Assembly (NCBI RefSeq): GCF_025787225.1
Contig: NZ_CP090958.1
Span: 1,145,856 to 1,209,855, forward strand
Length of the DNA stretch: 64,000 nt
Direction of reading: 5' to 3'
From: Saxibacter everestensis
GTDB lineage: Bacteria; Actinomycetota; Actinomycetes; Actinomycetales; Brevibacteriaceae
Below, one piece after another: positions 45,769-49,084 of this stretch (position 1 is its first letter; each line of letters begins with the position of its first letter). Position numbers and translations under genes: made by a program. Below the pieces are notes generated by a model. It was not told the DNA's origin and searched no databases. It worked only from the letters and a program-made list of their open reading frames with translations.

Positions 45769-45776
45769 CGCAATCT
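45769..45776. repeat. Target-site duplication, left copy (CGCAATCT)
   Basis: Identical to 47807-47814. Eight-base direct repeats immediately outside both inverted repeats show that the unit inserted by transposition. Confidence 0.85.
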
Positions 45777-45777
45777 A

Positions 45778-45802
45778 GCTCTTCACAAAGTGGGGTGTAG
45801 TT
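45778..45802 (+). repeat. Left terminal inverted repeat of the ISL3-type element
   Basis: 25 bases beginning GCTCTTCACAAAG and ending GTAGTT, the exact reverse complement of 47781-47805. Similarity continues imperfectly for some ten further bases. Confidence 0.85.
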
Positions 45803-46111
45803 GCGGCCTGAAGCCTCCTCGGCGACCCGGGCCACGGTCAGGTGCTGGCACACGATCGCCTCGAGTGCCCACCGCAGCCCGCGACGCTCCCGGGTCACGG
45901 TGTCGCGCGGTACGCCTTCGCGACCACAGCGGCGGCACCACTGGTCCGGCTCGACGACCCGGCATGCCAGCACCGCACGGTCGGGCCTGAGTCGTTGGCC
46001 GGTGACGGCCAGGCCGAGCCCATCGAGCCGGCAGAACCTGGTCAGGTCAGGGCTGGCGAACGTAGCGTCAGACAAGTCGAGGTCCGCCGATCTGGAGACC
46101 TCGACTTCCAT
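45803..46111 (-). pseudogene. Decayed ISL3-family transposase (N-terminal and partial DNA-binding parts)
   Basis: The minus strand encodes CRVVEPDQWCRRCGREGVPRDTVTR, the zinc-ribbon-like start of ISL3 transposases, joined directly to RGLRWALEAIVCQHLTVARVAEE, which is normally about 50 residues further on. The DDE catalytic domain is absent and the frame runs into the terminal repeat (NYTPLCEE). It cannot encode an active transposase. Confidence 0.75.
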
Positions 46112-46198
46112 CCCGGGATAGCGATGCACAAACGCAGCCGGAGGCCCCATCTCGTGTCACCGTCGCAGTCGACTTCTTCGCGTACCCACTCAGATCGG

Positions 46199-46780
46199 TC
46201 AACGGCGCACCCGATAGCGCAGGTGAAGCACCCGGTTGCCCTGAACAACTACGTCTGGGTCTTCCAGCAGGTGCTGCGAGTCGACGGAGCCGAAGTAGCG
46301 CTTGCCGCACCCGAGCACGACGGGTGCGACGTCCATGCGTACCTCGTCGACCAAACCTGCGGCGAGCACCTGGCCGCCGACGTCGCCAGCAGCGACCTCC
46401 ACAGCGCGGTCACCCGCGAGCTCCTTCGCCTTGGTCACGGCCGCCTCGATGTCGTGGACGAAGTGAAACGGCGCGTTGGGGTCCCAGCCCTCGGGCGGCG
46501 GCCGGTGCGTCACGACGACCACGTGGTCGACACCGCTCGGCGGCGTGCCGTCCCAACCGTCCGTCATGTCGAAGACGTGGCGTCCGGCGATCGTCACCCC
46601 GATCTGGTCCCAGTAGGGCCGGATGTGGTCGTAGGACGCTTGCGACACGTTCAGTACGCCGCTGTCGTCCAGCGGCACGTCACCGCTGACCAGCCATTCG
46701 AACAGCGGACCGGGATCGTCGTTCTCAGCCGCGATGAAGCCATCCACCGAGACCGACGCATTCATGACTACTTTCCCCAT
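46199..46780 (-). CDS. Dihydrofolate reductase-family (RibD C-terminal-like) protein, element cargo
   Basis: The ATG at 46780 has GAGGAGG six bases upstream. The 193-residue product starts MGKVVMNASVSVDGFIA, the typical start of YciB/YyaP-type RibD-C proteins, and has TIAGRHVFDMTDGWDG, VVVVTHRPP and AGDVGGQVLAAGLVDEVRMDVAPVVLGCGKRYF. Members bind NADPH; most are uncharacterised reductases. Carried inside the ISL3-type element with an AraC regulator. Confidence 0.85.
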   Translation of the reverse strand: MGKVVMNASVSVDGFIAAENDDPGPLFEWLVSGDVPLDDSGVLNVSQASYDHIRPYWDQIGVTIAGRHVFDMTDGWDGTPPSGVDHVVVVTHRPPPEGWDPNAPFHFVHDIEAAVTKAKELAGDRAVEVAAGDVGGQVLAAGLVDEVRMDVAPVVLGCGKRYFGSVDSQHLLEDPDVVVQGNRVLHLRYRVRR

Positions 46781-46843
46781 TGGTTCCTCCTCTGTGTAGA
46801 GTCCCAAGTCTCGTGTGCCGTGAGAGGTCGCTCTTGTAAGAAA

Positions 46844-47683
46844 TCAATCGGCCGGCAGCGGCCAGCCCTCCAGTGCGTGGTCTGGATGCTCGCGTAGGAA
46901 GCGTTGCCGGACTTCGACATATCGGGTCGGAGTGAGCCCGGTGTACTCCCGGAACTCGTGGACGAAGTGGGCCTGGTCGAAGTAGCCCGCGCGGGCGGCA
47001 ACGTCGCCCCAGTCGATCAGTGCAGCGACGTCGATCGCTAACACGGTGGAGGTGAAACGGTAGCTGCGTGCCAGCCGCTTTGGCGTGACGCCGATGACCT
47101 CCTTGAACCGCTTCGCCAAGTAGGTGCTGCTGACGCGGGCTGCCATGCCGAGTTCGCTGATCGGCACCGCTCCGCCGGTTGCCGCGATGGCGCTGCTCAT
47201 GTGGCGGACGATGTCCAGGCCGTCGATCGCGCGCAGCCGTCGCACCAGTTCCTCCTCGAGCACCATCAGCATTTCGTGCGGTGCGTCCGCCAAGGTCAGT
47301 CGACGGCGCAACTCAGCGATAGCGGGCCGGCCCCAGATCTGCTCCACAGTCGCCGGTCGATCGCACAACTCGGCAGCAGACAGCGGAAGGAACGGTGCCA
47401 GCCCCCACGGCTTGAAGTGGACGCCAACGGACCGGGTCGGGGTTGGGTAGCCGAACTCCCACGCACGGGTGGGCGTGGTGACCGCGCAGCCGTCGGTGTA
47501 TTCCACGGGTTCTACGTCGGTGCCTGCGCGGATGAGAAACGGCGCCCCGAGGTTGACGATGAGCAAAGGCGCGGGGGCTGCCGGCAGTATCAACCGGGAG
47601 TACGGCGGGGCGCCCTCCAGGTAGTAGAGGTCGTCGATCAGCCCGTCGAGCGGCGGACCGGGCACCCTGGACACATACTCCAT
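46844..47683 (-). CDS. AraC-family transcriptional regulator, element cargo
   Basis: The preferred ATG at 47683 (MEYVSRVPGP) gives 279 residues; the frame is open to 47770. N-terminal DUF6597-like sensing domain (LDGLIDDLYYLEGAPP, VGVHFKPWGLAPFLPLSAAEL) and C-terminal AraC HTH pair (VPISELGMAARVSSTYLAKRFKEVIGVTPKRLARSYRF; DWGDVAARAGYFDQAHFVHEFREYTGLTPTRY). It lies 63 bases upstream of the reductase gene in the same direction and likely controls it. Confidence 0.88.
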   Translation of the reverse strand: MEYVSRVPGPPLDGLIDDLYYLEGAPPYSRLILPAAPAPLLIVNLGAPFLIRAGTDVEPVEYTDGCAVTTPTRAWEFGYPTPTRSVGVHFKPWGLAPFLPLSAAELCDRPATVEQIWGRPAIAELRRRLTLADAPHEMLMVLEEELVRRLRAIDGLDIVRHMSSAIAATGGAVPISELGMAARVSSTYLAKRFKEVIGVTPKRLARSYRFTSTVLAIDVAALIDWGDVAARAGYFDQAHFVHEFREYTGLTPTRYVEVRQRFLREHPDHALEGWPLPAD

Positions 47684-47780
47684 GCTTACATCATCGCCGA
47701 CGTCCCATCTGGCATCACGCACCGCCGCAAGCATCGAGCAGGCGCCGATCCCGGACGGGCGCCCCGGCATTTCGGGCCCG

Positions 47781-47805
47781 AACTACACCCCACTTTGTGA
47801 AGAGC
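47781..47805 (-). repeat. Right terminal inverted repeat of the ISL3-type element
   Basis: Exact reverse complement of 45778-45802; the outermost bases (47806-47807, CC) give GGCTCTTC when read inward. CGCAATCT follows at 47807-47814 as the right target duplication. Confidence 0.85.
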
Positions 47806-47823
47806 CCGCAATCTGCGCAAATA

Positions 47824-47867
47824 AGCAACCCAGGTTGCTATTTGATCATTGGCAATGTAGGTTGCTA
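47824..47867. promoter_or_regulatory. Operator cluster before the HTH/Clp-N gene pair
   Basis: AGCAACC (47824-47830) and GGTTGCT (47833-47839) form an inverted repeat with a CA centre. The half-site GGTTGCTA recurs at 47860-47867, four bases before the start codon, opposite an imperfect GGCAAT arm. Spacing and position suggest two sites for the small HTH protein encoded immediately downstream. Confidence 0.55.
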
Positions 47868-47870
47868 AGC

Positions 47871-48119
47871 ATGGAGTCGCAGGAGGTCGCTGTCGCAGCA
47901 TCCGACACGTCCGACCCCCGGGCGGGTCTGAGGGCGGTGTCATCATTGCGGATGCTGGCCGAGTCTTTGGAGTTCCGGCAGGTCGAGGCCGCGCTGCGAG
48001 CGGGTATGAGCTGGCTCGAGGTCGCCGAAGCGCTTGGGGTGTCTCGTCAGGCGGTCCACAAGAAGTACGCCAAGCGGATCGACCCATCCATCGTTGTGCC
48101 GAGGAGGAACCGGTCATGA
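47871..48119 (+). CDS. Small helix-turn-helix protein paired with a Clp-N protein
   Basis: An 82-residue protein from the ATG at 47871. The C-terminal half is a helix-turn-helix (EAALRAGMSWLEVAEALGVSRQAVHKKYAKRI). It overlaps the next gene by four bases. No effector domain, so it is probably a DNA-binding partner whose activity is sensed by the coupled Clp-N protein. It likely binds the operator cluster just upstream. Confidence 0.85.
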   Translation: MESQEVAVAASDTSDPRAGLRAVSSLRMLAESLEFRQVEAALRAGMSWLEVAEALGVSRQAVHKKYAKRIDPSIVVPRRNRS

Positions 48120-49084
48120 GTAAGCTATCCAGGGCATTCGAACTGAGCCAGCAGGTGTCGATCGCCGCGAACGAGGAAGCGTCGCGCTGGGGACAGCCGC
48201 AGATCGATATCGACCACGTATTCCTCGCCCTGTTAGTCACTGGCGGACGAGCGGGGCATATCCTGCGCGGACAAGACGTGAGTCTTGACGAGGCGCGGAC
48301 GGCAGTACAGGCCCTGCATGCCGAACAGGTGGCCAGTTTGGGTATCTCGGTCCCCGAAATGGAACCAGTCCCAATTGCCGACCCGTCGATCGGGAACATC
48401 GACTGGTCGCCGCGCGGACTTGCGGTGATGCGCGATTCCTCGGACTACAGCGACGACCTGGACCTGCTTGTCGCATTGATCGATGAGCCGTCAGGGTTTA
48501 TCTCGGCGGTGCTCAAGCGCCTCCGGCTCGATCCCAACGAGGTCCGCCGCGCGGTAGGCGAGGCTCGGGCGACGCCGGACACCGACCGCGTGGCTGACCC
48601 AGGCAACTCGGGGTGGTGTTCGGTCAGCAATACCGGGTTTATCCCCGCGTCGTTGGCCCAAGTCTGGGCGCTGCTGGCTGACGTATCGCGACGACCAGAG
48701 TGGGACAGTTGCGTCGGCCGGGTCGAGCGCGTGGACGCGGAGAGCTGGGACCTATGGGTTGCCACCCGGCGGTCTGACGGCAAGCCGGTCAGGATTCGGC
48801 GGGACTTTCGGCGCTCCCGGATTCGCCAGATCGCTATCGAACCGCAGCACAGAGTGGTCTGGGAGATCACCCAACCTGACCGCGGGCGCCGGACCATCAC
48901 ACAGCGCTTCGCGGTGACGCTGGCCGAAACAACAGGTGGGACCTCGATCGACTCCAGCTTTCAGTGGCGCCGGACCGGTGGGTGGCGCGGTATCGCCCAG
49001 CGTCCGTTGGCTCCGCTGTACCGGTTTGTCATGCGCCAGCGGCTGTTCGCTACGGTCGGAGGGATTTCACGCACCTTCCGCTGA
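48116..49084 (+). CDS. Clp N-domain protein fused to an SRPBCC (polyketide cyclase-like) domain
   Basis: A 322-residue protein. Residues 1 to about 145 form a double Clp-N repeat like the substrate-adaptor region of ClpC/ClpA (FELSQQVSIAANEEASRWGQPQIDIDHVFLALLVTGG ... LLVALIDEPSGFISAVLKRLRLDPNEVRRAV). Residues about 165-322 look like an SRPBCC ligand-binding domain (GFIPASLAQVWALLADVSRRPEWDSCVGRVERVD, SSFQWRRTGGWRGI). There is no ATPase domain. Coupling with an HTH protein suggests a sensor that gates the regulator, or a link to Clp proteolysis. Confidence 0.8.
   Translation: MSKLSRAFELSQQVSIAANEEASRWGQPQIDIDHVFLALLVTGGRAGHILRGQDVSLDEARTAVQALHAEQVASLGISVPEMEPVPIADPSIGNIDWSPRGLAVMRDSSDYSDDLDLLVALIDEPSGFISAVLKRLRLDPNEVRRAVGEARATPDTDRVADPGNSGWCSVSNTGFIPASLAQVWALLADVSRRPEWDSCVGRVERVDAESWDLWVATRRSDGKPVRIRRDFRRSRIRQIAIEPQHRVVWEITQPDRGRRTITQRFAVTLAETTGGTSIDSSFQWRRTGGWRGIAQRPLAPLYRFVMRQRLFATVGGISRTFR

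Follow-up and report, generated by a model that had tools for sequence, protein, structure and literature searches.

A probable non-autonomous ISL3-derived transposon carrying an AraC regulator and a RibD_C-domain gene in Saxibacter everestensis

A 2030-bp segment (45777-47806) of the window, by which we mean the whole 64,000-nucleotide stretch of Saxibacter everestensis DNA that was analysed, is very probably an internally deleted, non-autonomous ISL3 transposon of the ISPfr2-like actinobacterial subgroup, and its cargo is an AraC-type regulator and a RibD_C domain protein encoded by what is probably one operon. We consider the unit to be derived from ISL3 because its ends, its target-site duplication and its transposase remnant all agree, and, because the DDE transposase is gone, we describe it as an ISL3-derived non-autonomous element and not as an insertion sequence (IS) in the strict sense. 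The more interesting part of our results is, in our opinion, not this single unit but the AraC-RibD_C module itself, which is found across bacterial orders and is repeatedly tied to ISL3 ends.

Ends and target-site duplication

The left terminal inverted repeat of the element (AGCTCTTCACAAAGTGGGGTGTAGTT; 45777..45802, plus strand) and the right one (GGCTCTTCACAAAGTGGGGTGTAGTT, read inward; 47781..47806, minus strand) are identical at 25 of 26 positions, the sole mismatch being the outermost base on the left, and the similarity between the ends continues as far as 45812, extending to 35 bp at 91%. The earlier note on this DNA had described perfect 25-bp inverted repeats, which is accurate once the outermost base is excluded but not for the full 26 bp. 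Immediately outside these repeats, CGCAATCT is found as an exact 8-bp duplication on the left (45769..45776) and on the right (47807..47814), and, for DNA of this base composition, one such exact match would arise by chance with a probability of about 3e-5. Both the duplication and a size of 2.03 kb had been reported in the earlier note, whose limits (45769-47814) take in the two copies of the duplication, and both are borne out by our measurements. The insertion may also be recent, as was proposed there, a suggestion that has the intact duplication and the matching ends as its sole basis.

The rule that we used for recognising such elements, calibrated on related loci, consists of ends of the form GGCTC[A/T]TC...GGGTGTAG together with a matching 8-bp duplication. 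Twelve other complete elements in the related loci obey it, with sizes of 1.38-1.72 kb (mostly ~1.43 kb), and a 13th is located on a Streptomyces plasmid; given that 13 further elements obey the rule, we conclude that it picks out real ISL3 elements. The duplications that flank these relatives mostly have GC edges and an AT middle (for instance, TGTTAAGC, GGATTAGC, CCTAAACG and GGCAATCT). The last of these is only one base away from the duplication in the window, and a small model built from the relatives' duplications ranks CGCAATCT among the best-scoring 1.7% of the octamers in the window. Regarding the features that define the ISL3 family, the unit has terminal repeats of the GGCTCTTC type that are identical over 25/26 bp (~15-40 bp in the family) and the 8-bp duplication on both sides, and what it lacks is a DDE_Tnp_ISL3 transposase. 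The assignment to ISL3 made in the earlier note is therefore upheld by the ends, by the duplication and by a remnant that aligns to an ISPfr2-like transposase.

To the right of the unit, a small HTH gene (~47871-48119) with GCAACC..GGTTGCTA repeats upstream (47825-47867) precedes a plus-strand gene (48116-49084) that codes for a Clp_N domain fused to a polyketide-cyclase/SRPBCC-like domain.

A broken transposase and an absent helper

A broken transposase gene sits between the reductase gene and the left end. Its N-terminal remnant (45818..46075, minus strand) corresponds, when aligned, to the first 134 residues of an intact ISPfr2-like transposase, apart from an in-frame gap of 44 residues, and gives no Pfam match. 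The last 11 codons and the stop (GGFRPQLHPTL and stop; 45783..45818, minus strand), recognised by comparing the translation with the intact transposases P0001 and P0002, are in a different frame from the N-terminal remnant and overlap the left end. The DDE domain, which comprises residues 168-421 of the intact protein, is wholly absent from the unit, so that the transposase was rightly described as gutted.

No match to DDE_Tnp_ISL3 or to the intact ISL3 transposase sequence was found in the host genome, and no other copies of the unit's ends were found in its complete 4.05-Mb sequence with up to 3 mismatches. As the element has no DDE domain and the host has neither other end copies nor an intact ISL3 transposase, we consider it to be non-autonomous, in agreement with the earlier note, and its helper to be absent today. 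The full-length ISL3 copy with matching ends that the same note had suggested looking for in the host was not found there; for this reason, mobilisation in trans is something that we infer, and it would not be possible now from a resident copy. With no functional ISL3 transposase in the unit or in the host, the mover would have come in and left, or would have been lost.

ISL3 transposases of the needed kind are common around the host: the intact ISL3 transposase has a strong match in 37 of 390 class genomes, and, within the host's order, 137 of 396 genomes match the segment of the window that contains the reductase tail and the transposase. Many of the latter are matches to the transposase or to the reductase, and, among the matches listed for these 396 genomes, only the window spans the junction between the two, so that no intact parent was identified. 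The end itself, when searched with up to 3 mismatches in 395 class genomes, was found in one further genome only, where it is an ISL3 end lying at the edge of a contig that shows no cargo. An autonomous copy combining both matching ends, the AraC-RibD_C pair and an intact transposase was likewise not found.

The passenger genes

The two passenger genes are both on the minus strand, with the regulator first and a gap of 63 bp between them, and from this proximity and common strand it is probable that they form one operon. The first (46844..47683, with its ATG at 47683) codes for a 279-aa AraC-type regulator with DUF6597 and HTH domains, and the second (46199..46780) for a 193-aa RibD_C domain protein (PF01872, E=3.6e-10) with a dihydrofolate-reductase-like fold. 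RibD_C is a reductase domain akin in fold to dihydrofolate reductase. The protein matches PF01872 and not DHFR_1, and its nearest solved structures are PDB 3kgy, a deaminase-reductase domain protein, and PDB 2xw7, a dihydrofolate reductase to which it has a weak sequence match (E=4e-6); no NCBIfam name applies to it. The leader between the right end and araC (47684..47780, minus strand) is conserved with the copies in Geodermatophilus, Nonomuraea and Actinomadura and probably holds the promoter of the cargo.

The dN/dS values of the pair against its nearest relatives are 0.13-0.27 (0.17-0.27 for the regulator and 0.13-0.22 for the RibD_C protein), and we conclude from them that the cargo is under purifying selection. 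As for its role, family membership leads us to guess that the pair might sense and reduce a small molecule, acting as a stress or detoxification module.

The pair in other actinobacteria

The earlier note had considered this cargo pair unfamiliar, but it is in fact common and present across many actinobacterial families. In all 80 of the 80 best actinobacterial loci from named genomes, the AraC and RibD_C genes are adjacent, and the sites that they occupy are unrelated. The noncoding flanks of the pair are conserved along with it, being 94-97% identical between orders; for instance, the identity is 96% over 223 nt between a Nocardia copy (L043) and a Dactylosporangium copy (L061), two genera of different orders, and a downstream block of ~200 nt is common to roughly a dozen genera carrying the pair. 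A quick protein tree mixes families, grouping the window with Agromyces, Microbacterium and Geodermatophilus, and the Micromonospora copies with those of Kribbella, Nocardia and Frankia. The nearest carriers have no flanking DNA in common with the window and, except for one 52-bp match, no neighbouring DNA in common with each other. Given that the flanks are conserved across orders, that the tree mixes families and that the neighbouring DNA differs, we conclude that the pair is a horizontally moving module, and the 2-kb unit looks like one of the copies of this module, which passes from species to species.

According to the earlier note, the finding that relatives devoid of the repeats have the cargo genes conserved at the same place in the chromosome would speak against a mobile unit, and no carrier was found to have the same flanking DNA. 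When an empty site was sought with the right flank as query, the sole matches were fragments of the adjacent HTH gene in two same-family genomes (L088 and L089), with no cassette nearby, and synteny there is too weak for the claim of an empty site. Comparison of the window flanks with the carriers by tblastx yielded matches of low identity, scattered over GC-rich DNA, which we judged to be noise because blastn gave no flank homology. No match was found in viral contigs.

Association of the pair with ISL3 ends

The end that lies upstream of araC in the window is also found upstream of araC in other genera, at distances of ~50-140 bp. It is conserved at 26/26 positions in Geodermatophilus sabuli (L006), at 24/26 in Nonomuraea indica (L010) and at 23/26 in Actinomadura madurae (L026), and diverged forms of it occur in Hoyosella (L012) and in Streptomyces zagrosensis (L044); L039 and L059 have weaker ends. 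The DNA identity with the window element is 90% over 1.6 kb in L006, covering the end and the cargo, and 84% over 1.9 kb in L010, covering the end, the cargo and the transposase; in both L010 and L026, the reductase gene is immediately followed by a decayed ISL3 transposase that is oriented as it is in the window. The search for the same ends with the same cargo at other sites, which the earlier note had recommended, was thus successful for one end only, as in L006, L010 and L026 just the araC-side end is recognised, the far end being lost or unrecognised. Automatic pairing of ends over the 80 loci gave no second complete AraC-RibD_C unit, and the short facing ends in Hoyosella, 1605 bp apart, have no matching duplication. 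In 7 of the 80 loci, a match to the transposase of the subgroup lies no more than 500 bp from the pair, and the other 624 kb of these 80 loci contain none (binomial p=2e-7); it follows from this that the link between ISL3 and the pair is not due to chance.

Other arrangements of the pair and ISL3 sequences were also observed. In copies from Micromonospora and Dactylosporangium, the downstream block directly adjoins an ISL3 end and a piece of transposase in convergent orientation. At L048:6680-6690, and also in L061 and L059, ~100-200 bp past the RibD_C gene, GAAGAGC and GGCTCTTC meet head to head where the conserved downstream block ends, and beyond this junction comes a fragment of an ISL3 transposase in convergent orientation. 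At L124:1489-1953, the C-terminus of an ISL3 transposase and a left end are located just upstream of araC (366-1208), which is outside the IS end; this left end is followed by CGCAATCA, one base away from the duplication in the window, and then by the araC leader.

Roughly 70 of the 80 carriers have no ISL3 trace, from which it follows that ISL3 is not required for the module to persist or to move. It could be asked whether the module is mobile by another route, such as recombination or integrative elements, with ISL3 often inserting nearby and the copy in the window captured secondarily. We regard this explanation as somewhat doubtful, although it would account for the conserved flanks that reach across orders without an ISL3 end at their upstream limit, and for the coexistence of several ISL3 arrangements (same-direction downstream, convergent downstream, and upstream outside an IS end). 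The distribution of ISL3 on the quick tree is also compatible with it, as ISL3 status is scattered, changing 10 times among 11 rows, which is no better than in shuffled data, and, since the ISL3-bearing rows do not cluster beyond chance, we do not claim a single ISL3 origin. What speaks against it is that the arrangement of end and araC is common at the DNA level to the window, L006, L010 and L026, from which we conclude that at least this lineage either travelled as an ISL3 unit itself or has such a unit as its ancestor. ISL3 elements may spread the module generally, or they may have captured it in a few lineages.

The abundance of carriers of the pair without ISL3 traces could also be taken to mean that a native chromosomal AraC-RibD_C pair is flanked by ISL3 ends by chance, or through two separate insertions, so that the ends do not delimit one mobile unit. 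This is very improbable, given that a single exact 8-bp duplication flanks facing ends that are 25/26 identical, that the same end recurs close upstream of araC in other genera, and that a single transposase has left both its remnant and its C-terminal codons within the ends. Finally, there is hardly any chance that the unit is autonomous and that its transposase was missed elsewhere inside it, because all frames of at least 50 aa were listed and only the N-terminal remnant, without a DDE domain, is transposase-like.

Proposed origin and wider meaning

On our preferred reading, that of an internally deleted ISL3 transposon, the passenger pair would have been drawn from a wider pool of a two-gene module that moves between actinobacterial orders and is repeatedly found beside ISL3 ends. 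The GGCTCTTC-type ends of the unit would have been recognised by an ISL3 transposase that came from a plasmid entering the cell, from other DNA or from a since-lost IS, and the unit would then have inserted between an ArsR-type regulator/ABC operon and the HTH/Clp_N operon, making the CGCAATCT duplication; the uninterrupted site would read ...GCGACGCAATCTGCGCAAAT... The description of the unit as a cargo-bearing insertion, already made in the earlier note, is upheld, with the passengers and the remnant located inside matched ends flanked by CGCAATCT.

A regulator and an enzyme are also associated with ISL3 sequences elsewhere in our loci. For instance, a plasmid of Streptomyces sp. NBC_01483 contains a complete 2377-bp ISL3 element (L094:2932-5308) with perfect ends and the duplication GGCAAAGG, in which an intact transposase gene is accompanied by genes for a MarR regulator and an enzyme of the glyoxalase family. 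It resembles the unit in the window in its order (end, regulator, small enzyme, transposase, end), in the kind of ends and in its perfect 8-bp duplication, but its transposase is intact and its cargo is a MarR regulator and a glyoxalase/VOC enzyme in divergent orientation. In Rhodococcus (L084:1581-5291) and Dietzia (L095:586-3960), the order is ISPfr2-like transposase, degenerate inner end, monooxygenase, AraC/DJ-1 regulator and good outer end. No duplication flanks this layout, which would fit the capture of neighbouring genes via an end further out.

We suggest, tentatively and with a little less than even confidence, that ISPfr2-like ISL3 elements may be general carriers of interchangeable modules made of a sensor and a small enzyme (AraC with RibD_C, MarR with glyoxalase, AraC/DJ-1 with monooxygenase), and that AraC-RibD_C may be among the most widely dispersed of them, across many families and orders of Actinomycetota, via both autonomous and deleted units. 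L006, L010, L026, L012, L044, L094 and L084/L095 are concrete loci that bear on whether such carriage is systematic. On our preferred reading, the unit in the window illustrates how simple transposon ends can suffice for an enzyme module of small size, with its own regulator, to pass from one actinobacterium to a distant one, even with the transposase lost. Moreover, as one ordinary-looking gene pair is repeatedly linked to ISL3 ends in several families, such pairs, which are usually annotated as chromosomal, may be mobile cargo.

Comparison with known systems

The closest known elements are the ISPfr2-like ISL3 insertion sequences of Actinomycetota, found, for example, on Rhodococcus plasmids, which have ends of the same form and produce an 8-bp duplication. 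The N-terminus of their transposase is 53-56% identical to the remnant in the window in a gapped alignment, and the DNA is 75-84% identical in pieces. In contrast to the unit in the window, which has 2.03 kb, cargo and no functional transposase, these sequences are 1.38-1.72 kb long and have a full transposase. That ISL3 elements with passenger genes exist, as the earlier note had stated, is already in the literature: ISPst2, an ISL3 element of 2985 bp found in Pseudomonas and Arthrobacter plasmids, carries an ArsR regulator and a permease (PMC6305408). It has in common with our unit the ISL3 family, the 8-bp duplication and the combination of a regulator with one further passenger gene, and it differs in that it keeps its transposase, has ends of the form GGGTATCC... 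and carries a different cargo (PMC6305408).

An IS with passenger genes (tIS) has genes unrelated to transposition inside its ends, together with an active transposase, and the unit in the window, with AraC and RibD_C inside its ends, has a broken one. Mobile insertion cassettes (MICs) are transposase-less cassettes between IS ends, with passenger genes inside. MICs are like our unit in having IS-type ends around passengers and no functional transposase, so that they would be movable only in trans. Among them are the qnrD and qnrS2 cassettes (PMC3913671, PMC5444012). The unit in the window stands apart in belonging to the ISL3 family and in keeping a visible transposase remnant.
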